Positions 1 through 18,642 of a DNA stretch of 39,763 bases are shown here, in pieces (within the stretch, counting starts at the first letter, position 1; each line of letters starts with the position of its first letter). The notes under the pieces were generated by a model. That model was not told the origin of the DNA. It worked only from the letters and a program-made list of their open reading frames with translations, and searched no databases. The translations under genes and the position numbers were made by a program. Source of the stretch: Deltaproteobacteria bacterium (GTDB lineage: Bacteria; Desulfobacterota; Desulfuromonadia; Geobacterales; Pseudopelobacteraceae); the NCBI GenBank assembly GCA_021779135.1, contig JAJYBH010000015.1:1-39763 (forward strand). The letters are read 5' to 3'.

Positions 1-508
1 AGGTCTTGTTGGCAGATTTCTGCCCCGGTCCCGGGTCTTTCGACCGTATTGACGGAATCCGGGTCGGCCTTGTCTGTGGCCGATAACTACTCCCCTTTAA
101 CTTACAGGGAAATATTAAGCACTGAGTCAGAGGATGTCAAGAGATTCTGGAAGAGATTCTGGAAGACATCGCTATTCAAAACGTCAAGCGGCAAGAAAGT
201 GAATTTCCGGTCTGCTGCCCTAATGTGTCGAGCCAACATATATCTGTATCATATAATCACTACGGTTAGAATCCTGAAAGCGCGCTCTATCAAATTGTTC
301 GAAATATTGTAACTTATTGAATCTTATTATCAAATGTGTGTGTGGGGGGGGATTTGGGTATATTTAATTCTGCAAGTACTAAGTTGTCATATTTCACTGT
401 ACCCAAAATACACATGTTGTATGTGTCACCAAGCGGAAGTAATAATTACAAAACACTTAAAGAGTGATATAGATATGTCGAGTAAATATCCAGTACCCGT
501 GTTTTAAT
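1..508. other. AT-rich stretch without a convincing gene
   Basis: I see no supported gene here. A TTG-started frame at 49-312 has no ribosome binding site, an unnatural composition and a local direct repeat (agattctggaag twice near 143-168). A short hairpin (ACACAT/ATGTGT) lies near 410-426 and a G-run near 342-350. The stretch ends in the target duplication of the transposon at 509, so it was continuous with the DNA after 3538 before insertion. Confidence 0.5.
501..508. repeat. 8-bp target-site duplication, left copy
   Basis: GTTTTAAT sits directly before the transposon left end and the same 8 bases (3531-3538) sit directly after its right end. ISL3-family elements characteristically make 8-bp duplications, so the insertion is complete and probably recent. 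Confidence 0.85.
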
Positions 509-532
509 GGCTATCCGTAAAAAGTCGTTGAT
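509..532 (+). repeat. ISL3 transposon left terminal inverted repeat
   Basis: It matches the right end 3507-3530 in inverse orientation with mismatches only at the third and fifth base. The core GTAAAAAGTCGTTG recurs internally in degenerate form, which suggests that this is the transposase recognition core. Confidence 0.9.
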
Positions 533-567
533 CTGAGTTTTCAGGCTCATTTCGTAGTTGTGCTGCT

Positions 568-632
568 AAATCGTATAAAGTCGTTGACATGCCCCGTATG
601 TGCCTATATAGTCAAATCGTATTAAGTCGTTG
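568..632 (+). repeat. Subterminal repeats of the transposon end motif
   Basis: Two 19-bp direct repeats, AAATCGTATAAAGTCGTTG (568-586) and AAATCGTATTAAGTCGTTG (614-632), differ at one base. Both resemble the inner part of the terminal repeat (TATCCGTAAAAAGTCGTTG at 512-530). They lie 46 bp apart, in the same orientation as the left end. They are likely extra transposase binding sites; I see no equivalent set at the right end. Confidence 0.75.
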
Positions 633-644
633 TTAGGAGCGCTT

Positions 645-800
645 ATGGCCCGGCGATCTTTTGAACAGTTACGAGCGTCGATCCTCTACAATGAAAGCCT
701 TCATAAGATTGTAGACGGCGTGAACTATGGCGTAGACATTGATAAACTGTGCCGCCTGCTAGAGAGCGAATGCAAGCAGGCTCGCAAGAGAGCGAAGTAG
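645..800 (+). CDS. Small basic protein in transposon, unknown function
   Basis: A 51-residue frame starts at ATG 645 behind a good Shine-Dalgarno (AGGAG, 634-638) and ends at TAG 800. The product begins MARRSFEQLRASILYNESL, continues through a stretch resembling a helix (DIDKLCRLLESECKQARKR), and is rich in Arg and Lys towards its C-terminus. It lies 12 bp after the subterminal repeats at the left end. I recognise no family. A small DNA-binding or accessory transposition role would fit the location but is only inference. Confidence 0.5.
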   Translation: MARRSFEQLRASILYNESLHKIVDGVNYGVDIDKLCRLLESECKQARKRAK

Positions 801-922
801 GTTAATTCATGGGATAACCGCCATGACGAAACCCGTCTGAAACGCAGTAACATAAAAATATCCGGAATTATACCGCTGCGGCATATTCACCCAATATGGG
901 GTGATTATATTGCAAATACAGC

Positions 923-1023
923 ATGGGTTGTGTCGTTACCGCCACATATTTTGATTGAATTTGGTTGAAATTAAACCCGAAATACAATAATTAGAAACAA
1001 ATAATCGCTGCGACATAACCCAT
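923..1023. repeat. Long inverted repeat before cassette half-site
   Basis: Arms 923-935 and 1011-1023 are complementary at 12 of 13 positions (ATGGGTTGTGTCG against CGACATAACCCAT) with about 75 bases between. A second short hairpin (CACCC/GGGGTG) lies near 888-903. The right arm ends 1 bp before GTTAGAC (1025-1031), which has the shape of an integron R' half-site, so this may be the stem of a long attC site. No matching RYYYAAC box was found on the left. Confidence 0.4.
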
Positions 1024-1025
1024 AG

Positions 1026-1389
1026 TTAGACCAACAAAGAAAGAATAGAAAACGATGAATGAAAAACTGAAAATAATTGAGTCAAAAATTCTTACAACGG
1101 TTTTCTTTATTATTCTCTTGGCAGCAATTGTACTTTTTTCAATGGCAACATTAGCAACACTCAGAATTAATTCTTCCGCAGCCTATTCGGTTACATATTT
1201 TGCACTCTTAGGCGTAGGAGTGCTTTTTATCAAATACATCTATTGTTCTATGTTACGGGTTTATCAATATGCCGCACTCGTTATAACAGCAGCGATCAGT
1301 GGGTTATGTTTTATGTGGTTGCAATATTTGCACTGAGAAAGGTCTAACAACGGAATGCTGCGGATAAAGCCCGCAGATTCCTTGAACCG
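1026..1389 (+). other. Putative integron gene cassette inside the transposon
   Basis: The unit starts at G/TTAGAC (1025-1031) and ends with an attC-like site starting at GTCTAAC (1342-1348). The start box GTTAGACC (1025-1032) and the end box GGTCTAAC (1341-1348) are exact 8-base reverse complements, as expected for the two halves of one attC site split by insertion of a circular cassette. It holds one gene (1055-1336), with 23 bp before it and 5 bp after it, which is the compact layout typical of cassettes. Confidence 0.6.
1055..1336 (+). CDS. Small integral membrane protein, cassette cargo
   Basis: The 93-residue product has about three hydrophobic segments: near residues 14-36 (TVFFIILLAAIVLFSMATLA), 44-65 (YFALLGVGVLFIKYIY) and 73-90 (AALVITAAISGLCFMWLQYL). 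The first begins after a short charged N-terminus (MNEKLKIIESK). The gene is AT-rich compared with the core genome. It lies between two integron-type half-sites within the ISL3 transposon. I recognise no family. Small membrane proteins of unknown role are common in integron cassettes; some act in phage defence, but nothing here shows that function. Confidence 0.6.
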   Translation: MNEKLKIIESKILTTVFFIILLAAIVLFSMATLATLRINSSAAYSVTYFALLGVGVLFIKYIYCSMLRVYQYAALVITAAISGLCFMWLQYLH

Positions 1390-1395
1390 TTAGCG
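1342..1395 (+). other. Putative attC recombination site (inside transposon)
   Basis: The order is GTCTAAC (1342-1348), a stem GGAAT + CTGCGG pairing with CCGCAG + ATTCC around the loop ATAAAGC, one unpaired G on the left arm (1358), and GTTAGCG (1389-1395). The 54-bp length, RYYYAAC box, hairpin with an extrahelical base and GTTAG end fit the attC architecture of integrons. The loop and right arm closely match the site at 4924-4975. The last box departs from the GTTRRRY consensus. Confidence 0.6.
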
Positions 1396-1480
1396 TGACC
1401 GGTCAGCTTGTTGTAACTGAGGTCAAGTCAATATCGGACGGGCTGGTCAAATTCGTCGGAATACGCAAGGAGAACATCTC

Positions 1481-1792
1481 ATGGCAACTATTACAGATAT
1501 AGAACAAATATCGGCATCTATTGCCCGTGAGTTCAAGCCGCAAAAAATTGTGCTTTTTGGTTCCCATGCCTGGGGGACGCCGACTCCGGATTCAGACGTG
1601 GATATGCTGGTGATACTCCCTTTCGAGGGCAAAGGATGGCGGATGGCAACGGCAATCAGAGAGAAGATAAAGGTCACCTTCCCGCTTGACCTCATTGTTC
1701 GCACCGAAAGCCAGATTGAAGATCGCCTGAATAAGCACGACTCCTTTATTTCCGAGATCGTTGAAAAAGGGAGAGTGCTCCATGAAGCCTGA
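1481..1792 (+). CDS. mntA: MNT-domain nucleotidyltransferase antitoxin (MntA-like)
   Basis: This 103-residue protein is a minimal nucleotidyltransferase. The hallmark GSHAWGTPTPDSDVDMLVIL (residues about 27-46) supplies the GS loop and the D-x-D metal-binding pair; a third acidic residue lies in FPLDLIVRT (about 68-76). In characterised MntA/HepT systems this protein transfers AMP to the HEPN partner and silences it. A Shine-Dalgarno (AAGGAG) precedes ATG 1481, and the 3' end overlaps the HEPN gene by 11 bp, so the two are co-translated. It is cargo of the ISL3 transposon, which is an unusual place for the pair. The family call is firm; antitoxin activity is inferred from homologues. Confidence 0.88.
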   Translation: MATITDIEQISASIAREFKPQKIVLFGSHAWGTPTPDSDVDMLVILPFEGKGWRMATAIREKIKVTFPLDLIVRTESQIEDRLNKHDSFISEIVEKGRVLHEA

Positions 1793-2162
1793 AACAACGG
1801 AGTGGGTTCAGAAGGCCGAAGGGGATATGAACACGGCACAGCGGGAATTCGCGGTACAAGAGGAACCGAACCATGATGCCGTCTGTTTCCACGCTCAACA
1901 ATGCGCCGAGAAATACCTCAAGGCCAAGTTGATTGAAGAGGGCTTGCCCGTCATGCGGACACATGACCTGGAAATACTCTTGGACCAGCTCTTGCCCTTT
2001 GAAGCAGGCCTGGCTGATTTGCTGCAGGCGGTCCGTATCCTGTCAGCGATGGCCGTTGAAGTTCGTTATCCTGGGATGGCTGCCGATGAGGATGATGCAG
2101 CAGAAGCCTTGCGATCGTCGGAAAAGATTCGCAATGCCATACGATCATCTCTCAACCTTTGA
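1782..2162 (+). CDS. hepT: HEPN-domain protein, HepT-like toxin
   Basis: The start chosen is ATG 1782 (MKPETTEWVQKAEGDMNTAQ), 126 residues, with a GGGAG ribosome site inside the end of the MNT gene. The sequence shows the HEPN core of alpha-helices: CFHAQQCAEKYLKAKLIEEG (about 34-53), THDLEILLDQLLP (about 60-72) and a late VRYPG. HEPN toxins of this type are RNases whose partner is an MNT protein. The classical R-x4-6-H motif is not clear, so whether this copy is nucleolytic is open. It is followed after 21 bp by the transposase gene, so the pair may stabilise the element or its host replicon. Confidence 0.85.
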   Translation: MKPETTEWVQKAEGDMNTAQREFAVQEEPNHDAVCFHAQQCAEKYLKAKLIEEGLPVMRTHDLEILLDQLLPFEAGLADLLQAVRILSAMAVEVRYPGMAADEDDAAEALRSSEKIRNAIRSSLNL

Positions 2163-2183
2163 TAATCGTACAATGAGACTGCA

Positions 2184-3500
2184 ATGCCCAACAAACTGAA
2201 TCTCTCCCGCTATAACATCCTCGGCACTTCCGAAACAGACCACGATCTCCATATCGATGCAGAAACAACCACCCCCCCAAGATCATGTCTTGCCTGTGGA
2301 TCGGACAATATTGTTGGTGGAGGCCGCCAGGAAATATTGATCAAAGATACCCCTATGTATGGGAAGCGAGTCGGCATCTACGTTAAAGCCCGACGCATCC
2401 GGTGTCTTGACTGCGGCAAAACGCTCACCGAGCGGCTACCCGACGTTGCTGAAAGCCAACGAATGACCACCAGACTCTATCGTTGGATTGCCGAGAGATC
2501 CATAGACAAGACCTTTATCAGCATTGCCCATGATGTAGGTGTTTCAGAGGGTACAGTCCGCAAGATCTTCAACGAGTACACCGCTGAACTGGCTCGCACG
2601 TTGGTCTTTGAAACTCCTGAATGGATGGGTATTGATGAAATCCATATCATTGGTAAACCAAGGGGTGTCATCACTAATATCGAGTCGAACACAGTCGTAG
2701 ACTTGCTTGTAGACAGAAGCAAGGTATTGATTACCAACTACTTCATGAGACTTGAAAACCGGCGTTCCATCAAGTGCGTCACAATGGATATGTGGCAACC
2801 ATACAAAGATGCTGTGTATAGCGCACTGCCCCAGGCGTTTGTTGTGGTAGACAAGTTCCATGTCGTTAGAATGGCCAATGCTGCCCTGGAGGTAATTCGC
2901 AAAGGCATACGTGCCGACCTCACCCAGAAGCAAGCCAGAGGACTTATGCATGATCGGTTCATCCTTCTAAAGAGAGAAGACAAGCTCGAACCTTTCCAAC
3001 GCTTGATATTGGAAACCTGGACTAAAAACTTCCCGGCCCTTGGTGATGCTTATCGGGCTAAGGAAGATTTCTTTGCTATTTACGATGCCATGACTATACC
3101 CGAAGCCAAGGCAGCTTATGACAGGTGGCAGAGAAACCTTTCCCCAACTATAAACGAAGCATTCAAGCCCCTTCTTACCGCGATGAGCAATTGGGAAACC
3201 GAGATCATGAATTACTTTGAGCATCCGGTGACGAATGCCTATACAGAGTGTTTAAATGGATTGATCCGGGTGATTGAATGCAGTGGCAGGGGCTATTCGT
3301 TTGATGCGCTCAGATCGAAGATTCTCTACACCGCCGGTGCTCACAAAAAGGTTGTGCCACCATTCCAGCGCAAAAGACCTTCTGATGCGTTCGAGAGATT
3401 CACTGGTTTCAGTTCACCAACATCTGATCGGCCCAGAGAAAAGAACTTTGGAACTGACATATCAACATTATTGCAAATCATACAAACAGGTAGTTCTTAA
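2184..3500 (+). CDS. ISL3-family DDE transposase
   Basis: The 438-residue product has an N-terminal zinc-binding part (CLACGSDN and CLDCGK, residues about 35-80), a helix-turn-helix stretch (HDVGVSEGTVRKIFNEYT, about 116-133) and the DDE_Tnp_ISL3 catalytic domain. The likely catalytic residues are D151 (GIDEIH), D202 (MDMWQPY) and E355 (NAYTECLNGLIR). The length is normal for ISL3 transposases and no frame disruption is seen, so the element is probably active. The stop lies 7 bp before the right inverted repeat. Translation follows the HEPN gene after 21 bp, so it may share a transcript with the toxin-antitoxin pair. Confidence 0.93.
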   Translation: MPNKLNLSRYNILGTSETDHDLHIDAETTTPPRSCLACGSDNIVGGGRQEILIKDTPMYGKRVGIYVKARRIRCLDCGKTLTERLPDVAESQRMTTRLYRWIAERSIDKTFISIAHDVGVSEGTVRKIFNEYTAELARTLVFETPEWMGIDEIHIIGKPRGVITNIESNTVVDLLVDRSKVLITNYFMRLENRRSIKCVTMDMWQPYKDAVYSALPQAFVVVDKFHVVRMANAALEVIRKGIRADLTQKQARGLMHDRFILLKREDKLEPFQRLILETWTKNFPALGDAYRAKEDFFAIYDAMTIPEAKAAYDRWQRNLSPTINEAFKPLLTAMSNWETEIMNYFEHPVTNAYTECLNGLIRVIECSGRGYSFDALRSKILYTAGAHKKVVPPFQRKRPSDAFERFTGFSSPTSDRPREKNFGTDISTLLQIIQTGSS

Positions 3501-3506
3501 ATCTTC

Positions 3507-3530
3507 ATCAACGACTTTTTACGGAGAACC
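3507..3530 (-). repeat. ISL3 transposon right terminal inverted repeat
   Basis: This is the inverse of 509-532, with the inner 19 bases (3507-3525) perfect. It is followed by the target duplication GTTTTAAT at 3531-3538. Confidence 0.9.
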
Positions 3531-3554
3531 GTTTTAATGATCATAAGCTAAATG

Positions 3555-3615
3555 ATCAGTTTCGGTAAATCACCATTTCACGAGCGCGCGTGAACTGCTC
3601 AATAGGGAGTTGGCG
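3555..3615 (+). other. Possible degenerate attC site before Toprim gene
   Basis: A hairpin TTCACG/CGTGAA (3577-3582, 3589-3594) sits within weaker outer pairing CAGTT/AACTG, followed by GTTGGCG (3609-3615), 10 bp before the next gene. The box CGCCTAAC (4923-4930) after that gene is complementary to GTTGGCG except for one extra base, which supports the two as half-sites of one cassette. The left box is not recognisable; the transposon inserted only about 20-70 bp away. Confidence 0.4.
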
Positions 3616-3624
3616 AGAAATTAA

Positions 3625-4887
3625 ATGGGATCATACACAGACCTGTCAATATCAGGATACACATTTTTAGAAACGAAAAGCCGTGTCATTCCTGAGGTGA
3701 TGACAATTTATCGTGAATCGGACAAGTGCATCTTTACTCAAAATGTACTTGACAGCATGGATGACGAACAAGAAACAGCCATAATCTATAGTTGCGAAAC
3801 TAGCAAGGTCATTGATCGACTTAATGTAATGGGATTTTCTATTCGTCGTGCACGTAAAGATTTTGAGTCGATACGGCAATCTGAGCTTGAAAAATACGCG
3901 TCTTGGGCTGAAGAAGAGAGCGAAGCAGATTGGTTCTCAAAGGAGTGGGAATTATTAAAAACCCTTACCTTTGAGGAATATATGCAAGGACTCAACACTG
4001 TCTTAACAAGGAAACTCAGTGTATGGCCACTTGAGAACGAGCAGCGCGAGCAGTTAGACCCAATAGTAAATTATATTCTAGGAGGAAGTGAGGAATACTA
4101 TTTTGGATTTCTCTGCACTGATATACGCTCCTTCTTGAGAATTGCATGTGAGTTGGTGGAACCACAGAGTAAGGTCGTACAGGATATTACAGAGTTGGTG
4201 TCTGCTGGCTACTACAGCGAAGATGAAGCGGTATGTAGTAGCGCCATCCTTGCCCTTACAGCTGGCCACCCTGAGAACTCATCACGAATTATACTTACTG
4301 AAGGATCCACTGATGCGGCAATATTGAGCAAGACGCTCGACCTTCTGTACCCACATCTTTCTGGCTATTATTCCTTCTTGGATTTTGGTGGTTCACGTCC
4401 TCAAGGTGGTGCAGGTAGCCTAGTTACAACCATAAAGGCTTTTGCAGCCGCAGGCATTACAAACCGATTGATTGCAGTTTTCGATAACGATACAGCTGCA
4501 TTTGATGCTAGGCGGTCCCTAGATCAAATCCGTCTTCCTGCCAATATAGCAGTTCTCAATTATCCGGATTTAGAATTGCTCCGCAGTTATCCCACTCTCG
4601 GCCCAGGAGGGGCTTCGGTGCTTGATGTTAATGGGTTGGCCGCTAGCATTGAACTTTATTTAGGGGAGGATGTGCTGTCAGACGGGGGCACGTTTGCACC
4701 GGTCCAATGGAAAGGCTATATAGAATCTGTAGGCAAGTATCAGGGGGAGGTGATGCACAAGAGTCGACTTCACACGGCATTCCAGCAAAAACTTGAACGC
4801 TGTAAATCTGATAGAAATGCAATGGATTCAGCCGATTGGTCTGGCCTGAGATCAATTCTACAGGGTATTTTCACTGTTTTTGAATAA
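3625..4887 (+). CDS. HEPN/Toprim-type Toprim protein, candidate defence effector
   Basis: The 420-residue product starts MGSYTDLSISGYTFLETKSR, which resembles the N-terminal domain that Pfam calls HEPN/Toprim N-terminal domain 1. A charged helical middle (about 75-200) follows. A Toprim catalytic domain spans about 220-300: the first acidic motif is LTEGSTDAAI with E226, and the second is VFDNDTAAFD with D287 and D289. Toprim domains bind Mg2+ and act in OLD-family nucleases, primases and topoisomerases. Proteins with this N-terminus are mostly uncharacterised and occur in defence-type islands. The gene stands alone between integron-type half-sites and is AT-rich against the core genome. Toprim is well supported; nuclease activity and a defence role are inferred. 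Confidence 0.75.
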   Translation: MGSYTDLSISGYTFLETKSRVIPEVMTIYRESDKCIFTQNVLDSMDDEQETAIIYSCETSKVIDRLNVMGFSIRRARKDFESIRQSELEKYASWAEEESEADWFSKEWELLKTLTFEEYMQGLNTVLTRKLSVWPLENEQREQLDPIVNYILGGSEEYYFGFLCTDIRSFLRIACELVEPQSKVVQDITELVSAGYYSEDEAVCSSAILALTAGHPENSSRIILTEGSTDAAILSKTLDLLYPHLSGYYSFLDFGGSRPQGGAGSLVTTIKAFAAAGITNRLIAVFDNDTAAFDARRSLDQIRLPANIAVLNYPDLELLRSYPTLGPGGASVLDVNGLAASIELYLGEDVLSDGGTFAPVQWKGYIESVGKYQGEVMHKSRLHTAFQQKLERCKSDRNAMDSADWSGLRSILQGIFTVFE

Positions 4888-4923
4888 GCTAACTTGATGA
4901 TATTCTTAGCATAAAATGCATAC

Positions 4924-4975
4924 GCCTAACCATCGGATGGTGCGGTGAAGCCCGCATACCTCATAACCGTTGGCT
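4924..4975 (+). other. Putative attC recombination site
   Basis: GCCTAAC (4924-4930, a perfect RYYYAAC) opens the site. A hairpin TGCGG/CCGCA (4941-4945, 4952-4956) is followed by outer GG/CC pairs with unpaired bases. GTTGGCT (4969-4975) closes it. Three blocks, TGCGG, AAGCCCGCA and AACCGTT, occur with nearly the same spacing as in the site at 1342-1395, showing common descent. Confidence 0.6.
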
Positions 4976-4990
4976 GCATAGGAGCATAAG

Positions 4991-5737
4991 TTGCGTGTTT
5001 ATTATATGACTTCGCTCGAAGTAGCGCTCAAACACATTATTTCTGAACAGCGAATGAAGGTTTCTCGATTTAAAGACCTGAATGACCCTTTTGAACTAAC
5101 TTCTCATGACATCGGAGATAAGAATGTTCGAGCAAAACTTAGAGTCTTTATTGCAGAAGCTGACAAACGGTTCGGCTTAATCTGCTTCAGCGACAACTGG
5201 AAAAGTCCGGTCATGTGGGCACACTACGCAGATAAGCATGATGGGGTGTGCCTAGGGTTTGACATCTCTGATGGCTACCTGACTCCTCTCCAGTATGTGG
5301 ATGCCCGCATCTTGCATATCTTCGACAAGAAAGTCCCTACCAATGATCAGTTAATTGACCAGATGCTTTACCACAAGGCAACAGAATGGAAATATGAGCG
5401 AGAAATCCGGGCAATTGTTCTATTAGATGGGCCACAACTCCCAATGTATCACATACCCTTTGGGCATGATCTGCAATTGCGTGAGGTAATCATTGGGTGC
5501 AGAAATCCGATGAGCCCAAGAGACCTAGAACCATTTATTCTTGCACAAGAAACCTCTGTCCAGATCATCAAGGCTCGTCCAGCTTTCAAGAAATTCGAGA
5601 TAGTTGAGAATCGTAAATACAAGAGTGTATCTATCCCAGCTACAAGAGACTGCAGAAAACTGCACGGGATACCGCGGACAGGCCCTCGCTTCCTGATAGG
5701 CGCAGGTAAGGAGAGCAAGGGATCAGAAACAACATAA
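4991..5737 (+). CDS. DUF2971 family protein
   Basis: The start is TTG 4991, placed by AGGAG at 4979-4983; an ATG five codons in is the alternative. The 248-residue product shows the DUF2971 landmarks: an N-terminal YYMTSLEVALKHIISEQRMK, then FKDLNDPFELTS (about 28-39), then LICFSDNWKSPVMWAHYADKHDGVCLGFD (about 62-90, split here by continuous reading), then HKATEWKYEREIRAIVLLDG. The function of the family is unknown. Members are common in mobile and defence-rich DNA. The gene is a lone unit bounded by attC-like sites on both sides. A C-terminal tail (about 205-248) rich in Arg, Lys and Gly runs past the usual domain. Confidence 0.8.
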   Translation: MRVYYMTSLEVALKHIISEQRMKVSRFKDLNDPFELTSHDIGDKNVRAKLRVFIAEADKRFGLICFSDNWKSPVMWAHYADKHDGVCLGFDISDGYLTPLQYVDARILHIFDKKVPTNDQLIDQMLYHKATEWKYEREIRAIVLLDGPQLPMYHIPFGHDLQLREVIIGCRNPMSPRDLEPFILAQETSVQIIKARPAFKKFEIVENRKYKSVSIPATRDCRKLHGIPRTGPRFLIGAGKESKGSETT

Positions 5738-5748
5738 GGGAAATGGAT

Positions 5749-5814
5749 TCCCAACGAGACCAGTGGACCCGGTCGCGATAAACCTGCGCCGGGTCACCGG
5801 CCGAGCCGTTGGAC
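5749..5814 (+). other. Putative attC recombination site
   Basis: TCCCAAC (5749-5755) opens and GTTGGAC (5808-5814, a perfect GTTRRRY) closes a 66-bp imperfect hairpin. The left arm GTG-g-ACCCGG-t-CGC pairs with GCG-CCGGGT-CAC, leaving two unpaired bases (g, t) on the left arm only. Extrahelical bases on one arm are the structural hallmark by which integrases choose the strand of attC. Confidence 0.6.
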
Positions 5815-5845
5815 ACCTATACCCGATTATCGCACGAGGAAGTAA

Positions 5846-6883
5846 ATGAACGCTTATATTGCAGAATATAAGGGCAAGCCCACCGCCTACCTTGATCAGA
5901 ATATTTTAGATCTTTTCGTCAAAGGTATCGCCATTGACTTCGCAGTGGCTCTTACACAGAGTTTCCAAATAGTATTTTCAGACGAAACATTGAAAGAAAT
6001 AAGGCGCTCTGGTGATCACGCCCAAGATTTTCTGGTCGTATTGAGGCGGCTAAATGCACACCATCTAAAAAACTATCTTGAACAGCCAGGATTCATACCA
6101 ACAGATCGAGCTACTATCACTGTATGTGATCCATTTGTAGCCTATGACCAGTATTGTGAAAATGTAGGTAGTTACCTCGATATTATGAAATCAATGGAGC
6201 AATGGCTATATAAGTTTTCTGGTGGACGAGTCGGAGATGGAATCGCTGAAATAAATGCAGAACAAAAAGCAGCCTTCAGAGGTCTTATGGGACAGATGCA
6301 ATCCAGTGCCACAGTATTGGCTAACGCTATCCCAGGAATAGAAGAAGTTCTAAGGCAATGTTCTGTCCTAATGGAGCAACAATATAGTGATACCCTCAAT
6401 GAGACAGAACGACTGATGAAACAGAATATTGTTGATGACAAATATTGGTCTGGGATAAAGGAATTTCGAAAAGCCGTGGACATAGGCCCAAAAGAACTAA
6501 ATAACATTGAACCGCCGGGTGTGCTGCAGCAAATATGGGAGAGTTATCGGTCGATTCCGCCTTACTCCGATATGGAGATAACTATCGAGACCTTCTTTGG
6601 AGTTTCGAAAAATCCGATTTATCCAGACCAGCCTTACTTCAAGCACCAGAAGGTCACCGGAATTTACAACATGCTCAACACCTTAGGCTATTTTCCAGAT
6701 TCCAAAGTACACAAAGAACGCAGGTTCGTAGCCTCCCTTAGCGACACAAGCCATGCTTCAATGGCCTCCTTCTGCAACTATCTTTTCTCAAGAGACGAGT
6801 ACTTTGTTAAGAAAGTGAGAGCAGCATATGAGTTTCTTGAAATACCGACTTCAGTTCAGCTTGTAGTTCTTGAAAATGCATAA
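5846..6883 (+). CDS. PIN-like-fold protein, candidate ribonuclease
   Basis: The 345-residue product begins with a strand ending in an acidic residue followed by polar residues (AYLDQNILDLF, D17), then IVFSDETLKEIRRSGD (about 43-58), and ends with DTSHASMASFCNYLFSRDEYFVKKVRAAYEFLEI (about 302-335, contiguous in the protein). A first-strand Asp, a mid Glu, and a late S/D-x-x-H...F-x-x-R/D-D-x-x-F block are the pattern of PIN-like nucleases. A long helical insertion with the coiled look of QMQSSATVLANAIPGIEEVL separates the halves. There is no antitoxin gene beside it. The TAA stop lies inside the next attC-like box. The fold call is by eye and moderate; a defence role is inference from the cassette context. 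Confidence 0.5.
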   Translation: MNAYIAEYKGKPTAYLDQNILDLFVKGIAIDFAVALTQSFQIVFSDETLKEIRRSGDHAQDFLVVLRRLNAHHLKNYLEQPGFIPTDRATITVCDPFVAYDQYCENVGSYLDIMKSMEQWLYKFSGGRVGDGIAEINAEQKAAFRGLMGQMQSSATVLANAIPGIEEVLRQCSVLMEQQYSDTLNETERLMKQNIVDDKYWSGIKEFRKAVDIGPKELNNIEPPGVLQQIWESYRSIPPYSDMEITIETFFGVSKNPIYPDQPYFKHQKVTGIYNMLNTLGYFPDSKVHKERRFVASLSDTSHASMASFCNYLFSRDEYFVKKVRAAYEFLEIPTSVQLVVLENA

Positions 6884-6939
6884 CATGCCGCAAGAGCCGT
6901 TTCGCTGACGCTCTCGGCTCAGAGGTCGCACGGTTGGTC
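6878..6939 (+). other. Putative attC recombination site
   Basis: GCATAAC (6878-6884) overlaps the stop codon of the PIN-like gene. A hairpin GAGCCG/CGGCTC with a 15-base loop follows, and GTTGGTC (6933-6939) closes the 62-bp site. Both boxes depart from consensus by a base. It is weaker than its neighbours and is called mainly on position between two lone genes. Confidence 0.45.
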
Positions 6940-6969
6940 AGAAATAGAAAAAGGTCTTGAGGAGTGAAT

Positions 6970-7782
6970 GTGCCTTCAATTGATGACGTCAAACCAAACG
7001 AACTACATCATTTATACGACTTGCTTGCTGAAGTTGGTGTCGATGTCAGCGACTGGCCTAATTATAATGGTTCAAATATACGGACTAACCCAAGATACTG
7101 TTATAAATGGTCATTTGTTGAGCCAAGGAAAGTCGTTGTTTTGTGTATCTGGTTTGAAAATATGAAAATTGAAGATGGTGTCATCTTCCAAGACAGGAAT
7201 GTGCGGCTGTTAGCGCAAGCACTTGATGCACCGGCAAGTGGTCGAGCGCTTCAAATGGACCGTGATATTCATACAGCATGGGCAACAGGGCTACCTGTCC
7301 GCGCTATCATCTGCGACAAAAACCCAAACAGGCCAACAAGGGCTACAAAAAGAATCCTAGATCCTCTCCCTTGGTCAATAGCCTATTATGATGAGGCTAC
7401 AGGGAAATGCAGATTAGTTAGGGGACTTGAATTACCTCGTTTTGTTGATCAATTCTCGATTCAGGAAATGGAAGCATCCGAAGCGAAACGTCGAGATAGA
7501 ACTGGAACTGAACCTGTCAGAAAACCTGAAGTAAAGCAACGTGCCCTAGACAGAGCCCAAGGAAAATGTGAATTCTGCTGTGAAACGGGATTTATTACAG
7601 TTAGTGGTCAAGTGTACCTGGAATCACATCACATAATTCCATTTTCTGAAGGTGGCCAAGATATCGATGGTAATGTGGCAGCACTTTGTCCCAACCACCA
7701 TAGACAAGCACACCATGGAGTTAACAAAGACATAATCCGTGAAACCCTCCAAAGAACATTGTCCGATATTGTCGTCACGTGA
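6970..7782 (+). CDS. HNH endonuclease with N-terminal unknown domain
   Basis: GTG 6970 is preferred because GAGGAG (6959-6964) then lies at proper distance; GTG 6964 overlaps that site. The product (about 270 residues) has an unassigned N-terminal domain (about 1-170) containing RTNPRYCYKWSF and VVVLCIWFENMK, a linker rich in charged residues, and a C-terminal HNH domain: KCEFC, then LESHHIIPFSEGGQDIDGN, then ALCPNHHRQAHH. The CxxC, HH, N and H residues that bind zinc and the catalytic metal are all present. A modification-dependent or defence restriction nuclease is plausible because such enzymes pair a reader domain with HNH, but the N-terminal domain is not recognised. Confidence 0.78.
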   Translation: MPSIDDVKPNELHHLYDLLAEVGVDVSDWPNYNGSNIRTNPRYCYKWSFVEPRKVVVLCIWFENMKIEDGVIFQDRNVRLLAQALDAPASGRALQMDRDIHTAWATGLPVRAIICDKNPNRPTRATKRILDPLPWSIAYYDEATGKCRLVRGLELPRFVDQFSIQEMEASEAKRRDRTGTEPVRKPEVKQRALDRAQGKCEFCCETGFITVSGQVYLESHHIIPFSEGGQDIDGNVAALCPNHHRQAHHGVNKDIIRETLQRTLSDIVVT

Positions 7783-7805
7783 AATGTGTCGAAACTAATG
7801 AATGA

Positions 7806-7896
7806 GGCCAACCAGATAGAAGCAGCAGCCTAAAACCGCCGCTGTTCTGCCAAGCCGTGTGCGCCCAGCATGGCGCGTACTTATGGACCAGAACAG
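7806..7896 (+). other. Possible last attC site of cassette run
   Basis: GGCCAAC (7806-7812) differs at one base from GACCAAC, the complement of the GTTGGTC box that opens the HNH cassette. A large hairpin follows: CTGTTCTG (7842-7849) pairs perfectly with CAGAACAG (7889-7896), with an inner GCGCC/GGCGC stem. No GTTRRRY box was found after it. The size and shape resemble a longer attC; it could also be a terminator-like structure without a T-run. Confidence 0.4.
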
Positions 7897-7955
7897 TAAG
7901 CCGGGTCACACTAGGCGAAGAAGAACCTGAAGAAGGATAGTATCGAAACATACAA

Positions 7956-7989
7956 AAAGAGCCGACCTCACTCAAGGGGCCGGCTCTTT
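7956..7989 (-). terminator. Rho-independent terminator of the HU gene
   Basis: Arms 7956-7967 and 7978-7989 (AAAGAGCCG with GGCTCTTT as the core) form an 11 of 12 bp stem. Read leftward it ends in a T-run, so it serves the minus-strand HU gene 35 bp away. Read rightward it could also stop transcription leaving the cassette run. Confidence 0.85.
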
Positions 7990-8023
7990 GGTTTAAAAAA
8001 GGTCATCTTCTCCTGAGAGGCTA

Positions 8024-8290
8024 CTACAAACCTTTCAGGTCTTTTTCTGCGGAGAACTTTCCGCTCTTCGACGCCGCAATCTTGAGTTCGGCGCCTGTCT
8101 GCGGGTTACGACCAATACGGGCCGCTCATTCAGCTACTGAAAACGCTCCGAAACCCGGGAATGTGATCTTGTCACCGGCTTTGAGTACCTCGGTCACCGT
8201 GCAGATAAATGCGTCGACCGCTTCGGCTGCAGCACTTTTGGTGAGTCCGTTTTTTTCTGCCATTGATGCTACAAATTCTGCTTTTGTCAT
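8024..8290 (-). pseudogene. HU-family DNA-binding protein interrupted by TGA
   Basis: Reading leftward from ATG 8290 behind GGAGG gives MTKAEFVASMAEKNGLTKSA and continues through FPGFGAFSVAE to codon 54. Codon 55 (8126-8128) is TGA, after which the same frame runs on as AARIGRNPQTGAELKIAASK to TAG at 8024. HU proteins have Arg at this spot (consensus VxERAARxGRNPQTG), so CGA to TGA is the simplest change. The whole would be 88 residues, normal for HU. The break falls just before the DNA-binding arm, so the 54-residue product could not bind DNA normally. A sequencing error is the main alternative. The terminator and ribosome site remain intact, suggesting a recent event. Confidence 0.85.
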
Positions 8291-8401
8291 ACTGCCTCCT
8301 GTGTGGTGTTATGGGCTTGTGCCCAATTGATGAATATCATCCCTGTCTCAAAGAGTGGGCATACCATACACGAAAGTCGTTGAACCAGCAATACCGACCT
8401 A

Positions 8402-8431
8402 TTGACAGACAGCTGAGATATTATGTATGGT
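8402..8431 (+). promoter_or_regulatory. lexA promoter
   Basis: TTGACA (8402-8407) and TATGGT (8426-8431) are spaced by 18 bp, giving a perfect -35 and a fair -10 directly before and overlapping the LexA operator. Transcription would begin near 8438. A start codon at ATG 8423 would lie inside this -10 region, which argues for the ATG at 8438. Confidence 0.6.
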
Positions 8432-8446
8432 GTCCATATGGATACC
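8429..8446 (+). promoter_or_regulatory. LexA operator (SOS box), autoregulatory
   Basis: GGTGTCCATATGGATACC fits the reported Geobacter sulfurreducens LexA motif GGTTN2CN4GN3ACC at every defined position but one (G for the fourth T). It lies in an 11+11 bp near-palindrome. Placed over the -10 and start of lexA, it would let LexA repress itself, with release during the SOS response. Confidence 0.75.
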
Positions 8447-9067
8447 ATTAGGCGAAAAAGAGATAACGCTCCCACCGCCCGACAGTTGCAGGTTCTGGAG
8501 TTCATCACGTCCTACCTGGATAACAATGGCTATTCCCCCAGCCAGAGGGAGATCGCCCAGCATCTGGGTGTCTGCAGCAATTTGCCCGTCTCCAAGCACC
8601 TGGTGGCCTTGGAGAAGAAGGGTTACCTCAAGCTGGATACGGTCAACCGCGGGATTGCCCTGACCGGTTCGGGCAGTAGATCCATCTCCCTCCCAATAGT
8701 CGGCACCGTCCGGGCCGGACATCTGTCGCCGGCCGTTGAGGACATTCAGGGCTACTTCTTGGTTGACCAACAGTCCGTCAAGGGCAAGGGTTGTTTCTTC
8801 CTGCGGGTCAGAGGCGACTCCATGATCAATGCCGGCATACTGGATGGCGACCTGGCCCTGGTGCATCCCCAGCCGACCGCAGACAACCGGGACACCGTCG
8901 TAGCCATGCTGGACGGCGAAGCCACCCTTAAAGAGTTCTTCAAGGAATCGGACCATATCCGCCTGCAGCCGGCCAACCCGGTCATGCAGCCGATCATCAT
9001 CCGACCGGAAGACGGAGAGGTCACCATCATCGGCAAGGTCATCGGCATTCACCGTATCCTGAAATAA
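8438..9067 (+). CDS. lexA: LexA SOS repressor / autoprotease
   Basis: LexA represses DNA-damage genes and cleaves itself when bound by RecA filaments. The winged helix-turn-helix is visible in RQLQVLEFITSYLDNNGYSP and REIAQHLGVCSNLPVSKHLV. Counting from ATG 8438, cleavage would fall at Ala93-Gly94 (VRAGHL), with the catalytic dyad Ser128 (GDSMINAG) and Lys165 (ATLKEFF). ATG 8423 would add five residues but lies in the likely promoter. The 209-residue length is normal. Two downstream genes follow with 2-bp and overlapping spacing, so they are probably in the same SOS-regulated transcript. Confidence 0.95.
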   Translation: MDTIRRKRDNAPTARQLQVLEFITSYLDNNGYSPSQREIAQHLGVCSNLPVSKHLVALEKKGYLKLDTVNRGIALTGSGSRSISLPIVGTVRAGHLSPAVEDIQGYFLVDQQSVKGKGCFFLRVRGDSMINAGILDGDLALVHPQPTADNRDTVVAMLDGEATLKEFFKESDHIRLQPANPVMQPIIIRPEDGEVTIIGKVIGIHRILK

Positions 9068-16270: not shown

Positions 16271-18642
16271 TTACCCGCGAAACCTTGAAAAGACTGGAAT
16301 TCGACAAGATCCTGGCCGAGGTCGCCACCCGCGTCCACAGCGACGTCAGCCGTCGGCGACTGCAGGAAACCATGCCGCTGGGCGAGTTGGAATCCATCCG
16401 CCTGATTTCCGGGAGGGTCGCCGAGATCCGCACCCTGACCGGATTCGGCATCGGCCTGCGCCTGACTCAGTTCGAGGATATCCGGCCCCTGCTGGAGACC
16501 CTGCGCCCGTCGGGAGCCTTTCTGGCGCCCCAGGAGCTGCTGTTCTTCCTCCCGGTGCTGCGGATCTTCTACGACGTCTCCCGCCAGTTCGGGCCGCGGA
16601 GCGATATTCCGTTGCTGAAGTCGATCGAGCCGCCGCTGGCCCCCTTCTCCGATATCCTTGAGCCTCTGGCGGCCTCCATCGACGCCGACGGCAGCATCAT
16701 GGACAGCGCCTCGCCGAAGTTGCGTGAAATCCGCCGGGGCAAACGCTCCCTCTCGGCACGCATCCGCAAGAAGATCGAGGAGATCGTTCGCGACAGTAAT
16801 ATCGAGATATTTCTCCAGGACGATTTCATCACCCAGCGTTCCGGTCGCTGGGTCATCCCGGTGCGCATGGACTCCAAGGGGATGGTCAAGGGTGTTGTGC
16901 ATGACGTTTCGTCCTCGGGTGAAACGGCCTTTATGGAGCCGCTGGAGATCATCCCCTTCGTCAATGAGCTGGAAAACCTGAATGCCGAGGAAAAGGCCGA
17001 GGAGATCCGCATCCTGCGGCAGCTCTCGGCCTGGATCCGTGAAGACGCCATTGCCCTCGGGGGTTGTTTCGAGACCCTGCTGACCCTGGACGGGCTCAAT
17101 GCAATCGCTGCCTTTGCCGACCACTTCGGCCTGGAGGCGGCCCAGATGAATGCCGATGGCCGGCTGAGGCTGGCCGGGGCGCGTCACCCGCTGCTGCTGA
17201 TGCTGGAGCGCCAGGGCATCCTCCCGCGGGTGGAACCGCTCGACCTGCGGTTGGGAGGGGACGCCCAGGCTTCGGTCATGGTCATCACCGGTCCCAATGC
17301 CGGCGGCAAGACCATCGCCCTCAAGACGGCCGGGGTGCTGACCCTGATGGCGCTGTGCGGCATACCGGTGCCGGCCGACGGCGCCCGCTCCAGTTTCCCG
17401 TTGCTGGACACGCTGCTGGTGGATATTGGTGATGAGCAGTCCATCGAAGAGAGTCTCTCTACCTTCTCCGCCCATGTGGCCCGCATTGCCGCCATCCTCC
17501 ACCAGGCCGGTCCGCGCACGCTGGCGTTGCTGGACGAACTGGGGGCCGGGACCGAACCCCAGCAGGGGGCGGCCATTGCCTGCGGCGTGCTGCGCGACCT
17601 GCAGCAGCGGGGGGCTTCGGTTATCGCCACGACGCATCTCACCGAGATTATCGGCTTTGTCCATCGCTCCGAGGGCATGCTCAATGCCGGCATGGAATAC
17701 GACGCCGAAACCTACACCCCGCTCTACCGCCTGATCAGCGGCGAACCGGGGCACTCCCACGCCATCGCGATCGCCCGGCGATTCGGCATGCCCGAGCGGG
17801 TGATCGCTTTTGCCCGCGAGATGCTGGGCACGGCCGGTGCCGATTTCACCTCGCTGCTGGCCGAGCTGCACCGCAAGCGGGAAGAACTGGTCGAGTCCCA
17901 GCGCCAGCTGGAGCGGCAGCAGGGTCAGCTGCGTGCGAGGCAGCAAGAGCTGGATGCCCGGGCCGCCGGCATGGAGCAGGCCCGCCGTGAGGTCAGGGAA
18001 AAGGCCTGGGGCGAAGCCCGCGAGCTGATCTCCGCCAGCCGCCGCCGCATGAATGAACTGCTGGACGAATACAAGCGCGAGCGGCGCAGCGAGATCATCG
18101 ACCAGCTGCGCCTCAGCGCGGAGGAGATCACCGCGCAGCTCAAACCGCTGCCGGGAGATGCCGCTGAATTTGTGCCCCTGCGGGATGTCCAGCCGGGCGA
18201 CAGCGTCCATGTCCGTTCCCTGGGGCATAACGGCATCGTGGTCCAGGTCGCCGCGAAACAGGGCAAGGTGCGGGTCAGGGCCGGCAGCATCGAGCTGGAC
18301 GTAACCCTGGCGGACCTTTTCGCCCCGCTCAAGAAGGGCAGTGACAAGAGCCCGAAGGCTGCCAGGGGCACCTGGAAGGTCGATGCCGGCGACGACGGAG
18401 AGCGCGAACTGAAGCTGATCGGCCTGCGGGTCGATGAGGCGCTGGACCTGCTGGAGCCCTTCCTCAACCATGCCTCCCTGGGCGGCCTGCGCGAGGTCCG
18501 GGTCATCCACGGCCTCGGCACCGGCCGGCTGCGGGATGCAGTGCGGGAGTTCCTGGCACGCCACCCGCTGGTGGATTCGTTCAGGGGCGGGGAACCGCAT
18601 GAGGGGCGCGATGGGGCTACAGTGGTGAGCTTGCGGCAATAG
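16267..18642 (+). CDS. mutS2: Endonuclease MutS2
   Basis: A full-length 791-residue MutS2. The N-terminal core/lever region has QDDFITQRSGRWVIPVRMDS and VSSSGETAFMEP (about 180-225). The ATPase has Walker A GPNAGGKT (342-349) and Walker B LALLDELGAGTEP. A coiled coil (about 520-600, LVESQRQLERQQGQLRARQQ) follows, and a C-terminal Smr nuclease domain has VIHGLGTGRLRDAVREFL (about 755-772). MutS2 does not do mismatch repair; it suppresses recombination or, in Bacillus, splits collided ribosomes, which makes its place behind a ribosome-rescue factor notable. Last gene of the nudix / RF-like operon. Confidence 0.96.
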   Translation: MITRETLKRLEFDKILAEVATRVHSDVSRRRLQETMPLGELESIRLISGRVAEIRTLTGFGIGLRLTQFEDIRPLLETLRPSGAFLAPQELLFFLPVLRIFYDVSRQFGPRSDIPLLKSIEPPLAPFSDILEPLAASIDADGSIMDSASPKLREIRRGKRSLSARIRKKIEEIVRDSNIEIFLQDDFITQRSGRWVIPVRMDSKGMVKGVVHDVSSSGETAFMEPLEIIPFVNELENLNAEEKAEEIRILRQLSAWIREDAIALGGCFETLLTLDGLNAIAAFADHFGLEAAQMNADGRLRLAGARHPLLLMLERQGILPRVEPLDLRLGGDAQASVMVITGPNAGGKTIALKTAGVLTLMALCGIPVPADGARSSFPLLDTLLVDIGDEQSIEESLSTFSAHVARIAAILHQAGPRTLALLDELGAGTEPQQGAAIACGVLRDLQQRGASVIATTHLTEIIGFVHRSEGMLNAGMEYDAETYTPLYRLISGEPGHSHAIAIARRFGMPERVIAFAREMLGTAGADFTSLLAELHRKREELVESQRQLERQQGQLRARQQELDARAAGMEQARREVREKAWGEARELISASRRRMNELLDEYKRERRSEIIDQLRLSAEEITAQLKPLPGDAAEFVPLRDVQPGDSVHVRSLGHNGIVVQVAAKQGKVRVRAGSIELDVTLADLFAPLKKGSDKSPKAARGTWKVDAGDDGERELKLIGLRVDEALDLLEPFLNHASLGGLREVRVIHGLGTGRLRDAVREFLARHPLVDSFRGGEPHEGRDGATVVSLRQ

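Follow-up and report, generated by a model that had tools for sequence, protein, structure and literature searches.

Class 1 integrons carried by Tn402 are described as chromosomal integrons captured by a transposon, and clusters of attC sites lacking an integron-integrase (CALINs) have been proposed to arise from stray insertions, from loss of intI or from rearrangement, both in one account (PMC8618304). In the Shewanella prophage M16-3 a single attI type starts both an integron and a CALIN (PMC9892861), and intI genes have been named in Geobacter metallireducens and G. lovleyi (PMC2426708).

The locus described here lies in a window of 39,763 nucleotides, the whole stretch of DNA that was analysed. 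It resembles the Tn402 class 1 integrons in having an attI with cassettes on a transposon. The carrier, however, is an ISL3-family element, no intI is aboard, the attI region is related to the integron heads of this order, and no resistance gene is found among the ORFs identified in the window's transposon. Right of the transposon, the array at 3610–7862 has the hallmarks of a CALIN, at least two same-strand attCs with no intI near: three attCs score E 0.0054 or better and the contig carries no intI. It departs from the CALIN description in that it starts with a conserved, dispersed attI-like head (head B), which itself holds a transposon with another head (head A). The nearest precedent for head B is the attI-type site that heads an integrase-less array in M16-3, yet that case concerns two arrays of one prophage, whereas the hairpin family of head B has matches in 82 of the order's 141 genomes, counting that of the window.

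ISL3-family elements can carry passenger genes. The present element shares with such elements the transposase family, terminal inverted repeats, an 8-bp duplication and a passenger slot, and differs from them in that its passenger is an integron head with a cassette. We interpret the locus as an integron head and cassette carried by a transposon that inserted into the head of another array, itself integrase-less, a reading to which we assign a probability of about 0.85. The open-licence literature yielded no description of head B or of an ISL3 transposon that bears an integron head, and two head B probe words (9 and 8 bases) do not occur in the main text of PMC2700814.

The transposon and its passenger slot

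The features of the transposon (509–3530) and its flanking duplication are given below; C denotes contigs of the window's own genome, G genomes and L fetched loci.

501–508, no strand: left copy of the target-site duplication, GTTTTAAT, present once at the C220 site
509–532, plus strand: left terminal inverted repeat, GGCTATCCGTAAAAAGTCGTTGAT; same end in L045 and L046
645–800, plus strand: left-module ORF of 51 aa, 81–87% identical over 47 aa to L045 and L046, whose homology ends at 785; no Pfam match
849–1024, plus strand: integron head A, homologue of the region from the intI start codon to attI, with the intI coding sequence absent
1026–1389, plus strand: integrated gene cassette 1, with G^TT crossovers at 1025/1026 and 1389/1390
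1055–1336, plus strand: cassette 1 ORF of 93 aa, a membrane protein, its translation hydrophobic by eye
1341–1395, plus strand: attC of cassette 1, with R'' box GGTCTAAC and R' box GTTAG
1390–1480, plus strand: stretch after cassette 1, whose sole match is 23 bases in one other of the 141 genomes
1481–1792, plus strand: MNT-type nucleotidyltransferase, antitoxin-like (PF01909, E 2e-11)
1782–2162, plus strand: HEPN protein, partner of the MNT protein (PF05168, E 2.7e-24)
2184–3500, plus strand: ISL3-family transposase, 438 aa (PF01610, NF033550)
3507–3530, minus strand: right terminal inverted repeat, an imperfect inverse of the left end
3531–3538, no strand: right copy of the duplication, an exact repeat of 501–508

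The element combines a DDE transposase, terminal inverted repeats and an 8-bp target duplication, a length that we take to be an ISL3-family trait. Its transposase scores 281 bits against NF033550 (cut-off 180) and E 4.2e-57 against PF01610, and the transposase stretch occurs only once in the genome. An empty site on contig C220, a paralogue in the same genome rather than the same locus of a sister strain, joins the equivalent of 398–508 directly to that of 3531–3613 (97% and 94% identity) with one GTTTTAAT between them, which fixes the ends of the transposon. Movement of the transposon into its present place is supported by the duplication and by this empty paralogous site.

Two related elements, in metagenome-assembled genomes labelled Geobacteraceae (L045 and L046), share the left module as far as 785, and their homology resumes at 2169 or 2174 with the transposase module. 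The DNA between their modules is different and has no match to 786–2168, which identifies 786–2168 as a variable passenger slot. The original prediction had looked to ISL3 relatives lacking exactly 1026–1389; these two do not bear it out, since they match no part of the slot and hold other DNA there.

Beyond cassette 1, the slot contains the stretch at 1390–1480, which may represent the right flank of the old attI or the beginning of another cassette, and then the MNT/HEPN pair. The MNT protein scores 33 bits against the MntA model, under its cut-off of 60, and has a 98% identical counterpart in L081; similar MNT/HEPN pairs also occur elsewhere without the context of an integron head. With the covariance model described below, no attC was found between the HEPN gene and the transposase, and the pair might be a second cassette that has lost its attC. 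As the assembly is a 221-contig draft, a chimera is possible at the inner junctions of the slot.

Cassette 1 and integron head A

Cassette 1 opens with the start box GTTAGACC (1025–1032), which is complementary at 8/8 bases to the R'' box at 1341–1348. The R'' box is followed by the hairpin arms GGAAT[G]CTGCGG and CCGCAGATTCC, with a single unpaired G, and GTTAG closes the attC at 1389–1393. The box pair, the ORF, the hairpin and the closing GTTAG are thus all found where the original prediction had placed them. A box pair of this kind with a nearby GTT occurs once in the whole window. The chance expectation is 0.12 per window length, and 7 of 60 first-order random sequences contained at least one pair. 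As this makes the boxes alone weak proof of a cassette, we built a covariance model for attC.

The model was trained on 15 hand-picked candidate attCs, each positioned downstream of its attI-type head and sharing its orientation, from five contigs: C204 of the window's own genome (two), G067 (two), G026 (two), G024 (three) and G059 (six). The window's own sites were excluded, and the frame of one training site, L079:746–807, may be a base or two off. A simple genome-wide R''/R' pattern had been dropped after giving 37 matches against 140 for the reversed control pattern, as had heuristic attC scans, which returned many false pairs.

The attC of cassette 1 (1342–1395) scores 38.6 bits (E 1.9e-9) and ranks first in the window, far above background; the next-best score below the four attC matches is 9.5 bits (E 2.8). 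Over 1338–1393 it is 80% identical to an array attC of the same-genus genome G067 (L042 670–616), and the array of G026 also has an attC with this stem, both of these attCs being members of the training set. In another genus of the family (G118, L022), a homologue of cassette 1 is 80% identical over 1025–1353 and keeps both the start box and the R'' box while diverging inside the attC. This differing attC, which lies outside the training set, is likewise detected by the model (L080 8691–8765, 29.7 bits). Profile searches with the cassette 1 protein gave no family above cut-off; relatives were found neither on plasmids (E 0.01) nor in viral contigs. Rfam has no match in 400–3700 (E up to 5) or in 1–600 (E up to 1).

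Judged from its sequence, then, 1025–1395 is an integron gene cassette: RYYYAAC...GTTR boxes surround an imperfect hairpin, and the start and R'' boxes are halves of one attC. Its excision by IntI as a circle is a prediction only. The attC score, together with the ISL3 ends, duplication and transposase, confirms the proposal of a gene cassette within a transposon.

Upstream of the cassette, head A (849–1024) aligns with six other heads, two from the window's own genome (C204 and C25) and one each from G024, G067, G059 and G026, and the conserved block ends at the GTT crossover. The position of an intI start codon would be 852–850 on the minus strand. BLAST pieces starting at 849–850 cover 68–121 bases over the six heads and 68–106 in five of them. 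For these five, the crossover is matched through the multiple alignment; a longer G024 piece (850–1042) reaches about 17 bases beyond the crossover. The G067 head has extra bases near the crossover in the alignment. IntI similarity adjoins the heads of C204, G067 and G059, partial each time and covering at most about residues 31–173 of the C32 protein. None was found in the stretches fetched around the C25 and G026 heads, and the G024 head is some 280 bases away from the end of its contig. The homology of 849–1024 to intI-start/attI regions indicates that the transposon carries an integron head, with an attI at the head of its array, in which intI is lacking. The window's contig has no TIGR02249 match and hence no linked intI of a complete integron; nor does the element match a class 1 integron with its intI1 and attI1, given that no intI is aboard and that head A aligns with heads of other arrays in this order.

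On C25 (L133 15897–16002, minus strand), the copy of head A is accompanied by a cassette-like gene and a weak attC (15.1 bits, E 0.1). A serine-recombinase-like ORF, recognized by eye at 16605–18209 of L133, lies on its other side.

Several alternative accounts of this region can be set against the evidence. That 1341–1395 is a chance hairpin or a terminator draws on the frequency of box pairs expected from chance, and its probability is negligible given the E-value of the model and the same-stem array attCs in two other genomes. The main inference of the original prediction was that an integrase placed a lone cassette in an ordinary GTT of the transposon. Secondary-site insertions of cassettes are known in general, and one would fit a lone cassette whose boxes pair perfectly on a contig that lacks intI. 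It is very unlikely here, however, because the crossover is preceded by 176 bp that align with intI-start/attI regions in six other heads, and because nothing equivalent to 849–1024 is present in L045 or L046. A genuine cassette in the transposon, inserted or captured, stands from that inference; the stray site does not, since the cassette sits at an attI-type head. A decayed integron is also conceivable, although we think it rather less likely than not. An ISL3 element would have inserted beside an integron, and deletions and recombination between copies would have fused the left module with attI, leaving a fossil block instead of a functional landing site. Such a history would agree with the intI coding sequence that is missing here and partial beside the C204, G067 and G059 heads, with the unexplained junctions at 786–848 and 1390–1480, and with an MNT/HEPN pair that may be a cassette without its attC. 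Yet the boxes, the attC and the transposase ORF are all intact, and the exact target-site duplication implies that the element moved after, or with, the assembly of its present ends.

Head B and the second cassette array

Right of the transposon, the window contains head B and the cassettes that follow it, with three more attCs found by the covariance model on the same strand.

3531–3613, plus strand: integron head B, a dispersed hairpin repeat with its 5' edge split by the transposon; 398–508 is the upstream flank shared with C220
3610–4969, plus strand: head B cassette with ORF 3625–4887 (HEPN/Toprim-N domain; PF18871, E 1.4e-19) and attC 4924–4975 (21.9 bits, E 3.4e-4)
4970–5808, plus strand: cassette with ORF 4991–5737 (DUF2971; PADLOC candidate PDC-S31) and attC 5749–5814 (18.1 bits, E 0.0054)
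5809–6932, plus strand: probable cassette with ORF 5846–6883 and an attC-like site at 6878–6939 (7.3 bits, E 3.0 with filters off)
6933–7857, plus strand: cassette with ORF 6964–7782 (HNH endonuclease, type IV restriction-like; PF01844, mREase_IV) and attC 7807–7862 (27.3 bits, E 7e-6)

Start and R'' boxes correspond less closely here than in cassette 1, and imperfectly in two of the cassettes. The start box at 3610 is GTTGGCG, one base short of the GTTAGGCG expected from R'', and that of the cassette at 4970 is GTTGGCTG against GTTGGGAA, with agreement limited to GTTGG. The attC-like site at 6878–6939 is not significant alone, its box and stem having been recognized by eye. The last attC (7807–7862) has counterparts on C220 and C6 with 88% identity across 51 bases.

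The left flank (1–508) was also considered as array sequence and rejected, since it gave no attC match even with E values of up to 10 allowed. A query with 1–508 matched 114 of the 141 genomes, mostly within 1–99; this repeat of about 99 bp, often in several copies per genome, is spread across the order and has no Rfam match at E 1.

We analysed 60 loci of the head B family (L139–L198), drawn from the matches listed. They comprise a first set of 20 loci, including the genome's own C220 copy and leaving aside the window's own rows, and 40 others taken nearly in rank order, with a few skipped (for example at contig ends) and the genome's own C90 copy taken out of order. The core of head B is a near-perfect palindrome. 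A GTT lies at or near the conserved 3' edge in 57 of the 60 copies, exactly at the edge in 53 and offset by 1–5 bases in four, and there is none within reach of the edge in L151, L164 and L198. Conservation is high up to the GTT, persists for one base and then falls, and upstream it is gone beyond about −83; each copy was aligned by whichever GTT lay closest to the predicted edge, which makes the GTT columns conserved by construction. In the stem, cells with two-sided changes number 20 against 9.5 in shuffled data, and pairs with such changes 5 against 4.3, for a set of 33 sequences, the copy in the window plus 32 from the 60, mostly chosen for lack of length variants. These counts are suggestive only of compensatory change.

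The flanks of the head B loci extend up to 3 kb (mean 2.2 kb upstream and 2.3 kb downstream). At E 0.05 or below, attC matches are found in 30 of the 60 loci, and all 40 of these matches lie downstream and on the same strand; the fetched flanks of the other 30 loci have none at this threshold. Three sites above E 0.05 are left out of the 40/40: L152:2888–2939 and L153:1927–1987, both downstream and on the same strand, and L140:640–673, on the opposite strand (13.3 bits, E 0.27). When the five loci from genomes that supplied training attCs (L139, L148, L171, L191 and L198) are removed, the result is 36/36 in 27 of 55 loci. Across the 30 loci with attCs, the five variable bases after the head B GTT were compared with the reverse complement of R'' in the closest attC downstream. 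They agree at 110 of 150 positions, against a mean of 61.5 when the pairings are shuffled, and 0 of 20,000 shuffles reach 110. This correspondence, which extends the two-halves reasoning of the original prediction to a whole family, indicates that the G^TT of head B was the point of cassette entry.

Tblastn with two IntI queries (E 1e-3) detected no similarity in the 60 loci, flanks of up to 3 kb included. Head B has the junction of cassettes at G^TT that is expected of an attI, as judged by comparison, and has no adjacent intI; it thus appears to behave as an attI without a linked integrase. Searches did not find the family on plasmids or in phages, nor its exact consensus in viral contigs. 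Head B has no match in 31 transposase loci, which are hence a poor test.

Two features of individual copies may be added. Beside the C220 copy, a divergent serine resolvase gene (L131 9637–10257; PF00239) lies about 360 bp from head B, in the place where an intI might be expected. In short copies (for example L150, L152, L156, L179, L181 and L184), GGA is often seen by eye before TAAATG at the 5' edge and might mark how the heads spread.

An attC that has lost its R'' was considered as an identity for head B and set aside, with no RYYYAAC partner seen by eye on the 5' side. It is also unlikely that head B is a leader, promoter or terminator element of the host, outside recombination and placed before cassettes by selection for expression. 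The strong hairpin near the first gene would suit such an element, as would the 30 of 60 copies with no attC match in the fetched flank, and Geobacter genomes are reported to have many multicopy intergenic sequence families in two accounts of such families (PMC2700814, PMC2996986). Against it stand the GTT at or near the edge, with a drop in conservation right after, and the match to the next R'' far above shuffles, which is not predicted for a transcription element.

Integrases of the genome and a model for the two heads

TIGR02249 has nine matches in the window's own genome, on C32, C3, C60, C204, C11 and C196. Across the order, IntI is matched at E 1e-45 or below in 64 of the 141 genomes. 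Among 29 intI loci examined (L199–L227), 17 fit the long C3 IntI far better than the C32 IntI (536–674 against 213–241 bits), and 3 show an attC match in their short flanks. Head B and intI occur together more often than chance would give: genomes with both number 47, with head B but no listed intI 35, with intI only 17 and with neither 42 (Fisher p 0.001, a value that ignores relatedness and completeness). Among the matches listed, four genomes have head B and intI on one contig, the nearest pair being about 160 kb apart (G125), a comparison made by eye in many-contig drafts that hence says little.

The long, N-terminally extended IntI (L013 3397–4758; L211–L227) recurs in the order, with an attC in the flanks of 2 of 17 loci (L211 and L219). 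A Mu-like prophage on C32 (L012, C32:4000–20000), with GemA, Mor and terminase, encodes an IntI at 7722–8753 on the plus strand (375.6 bits, over the family cut-off). Four attCs on the minus strand run away from it, at 5417–5479, 6490–6546, 6940–7001 and 7301–7362 (32.0, 23.0, 24.0 and 25.5 bits), apparently a complete integron inside a transposable phage.

We infer a solitary integrase acting in trans on the dispersed heads as the simplest model. Its main rival is loss of a once-linked intI at each head B site, against which stands the result that no IntI remnant is detected at E 1e-3 beside 60 heads. For the window, the sequence of events under our main reading would be as follows. The passenger slot at 786–2168 holds an attI region without intI, the first cassette and the MNT/HEPN pair, and the cassette would have been inserted at the attI of head A by integron recombination. 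The whole element, probably with head A already aboard, would then have transposed into the 5' edge of head B, making the 8-bp duplication. Head B starts a distinct array of three or more cassettes that lacks an integrase (3610–7862). An integrase encoded elsewhere in the genome may work both heads in trans, and the transposon would thereby move a usable landing site. That the order, Geobacteraceae included, runs a dispersed integron in this way, with scattered head B sites filled in trans (for example by a C3-type IntI) and carried onward by transposons, is in our view close to an even proposition, falling a little short of one.

If many integrase-less arrays start with a conserved, repeated landing site, as head B suggests, a trans-acting integron becomes directly testable. 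A transposon that carries a landing site and a cassette would be a simple route by which parts of a chromosomal integron become mobile, the kind of step that precedes clinical integrons.
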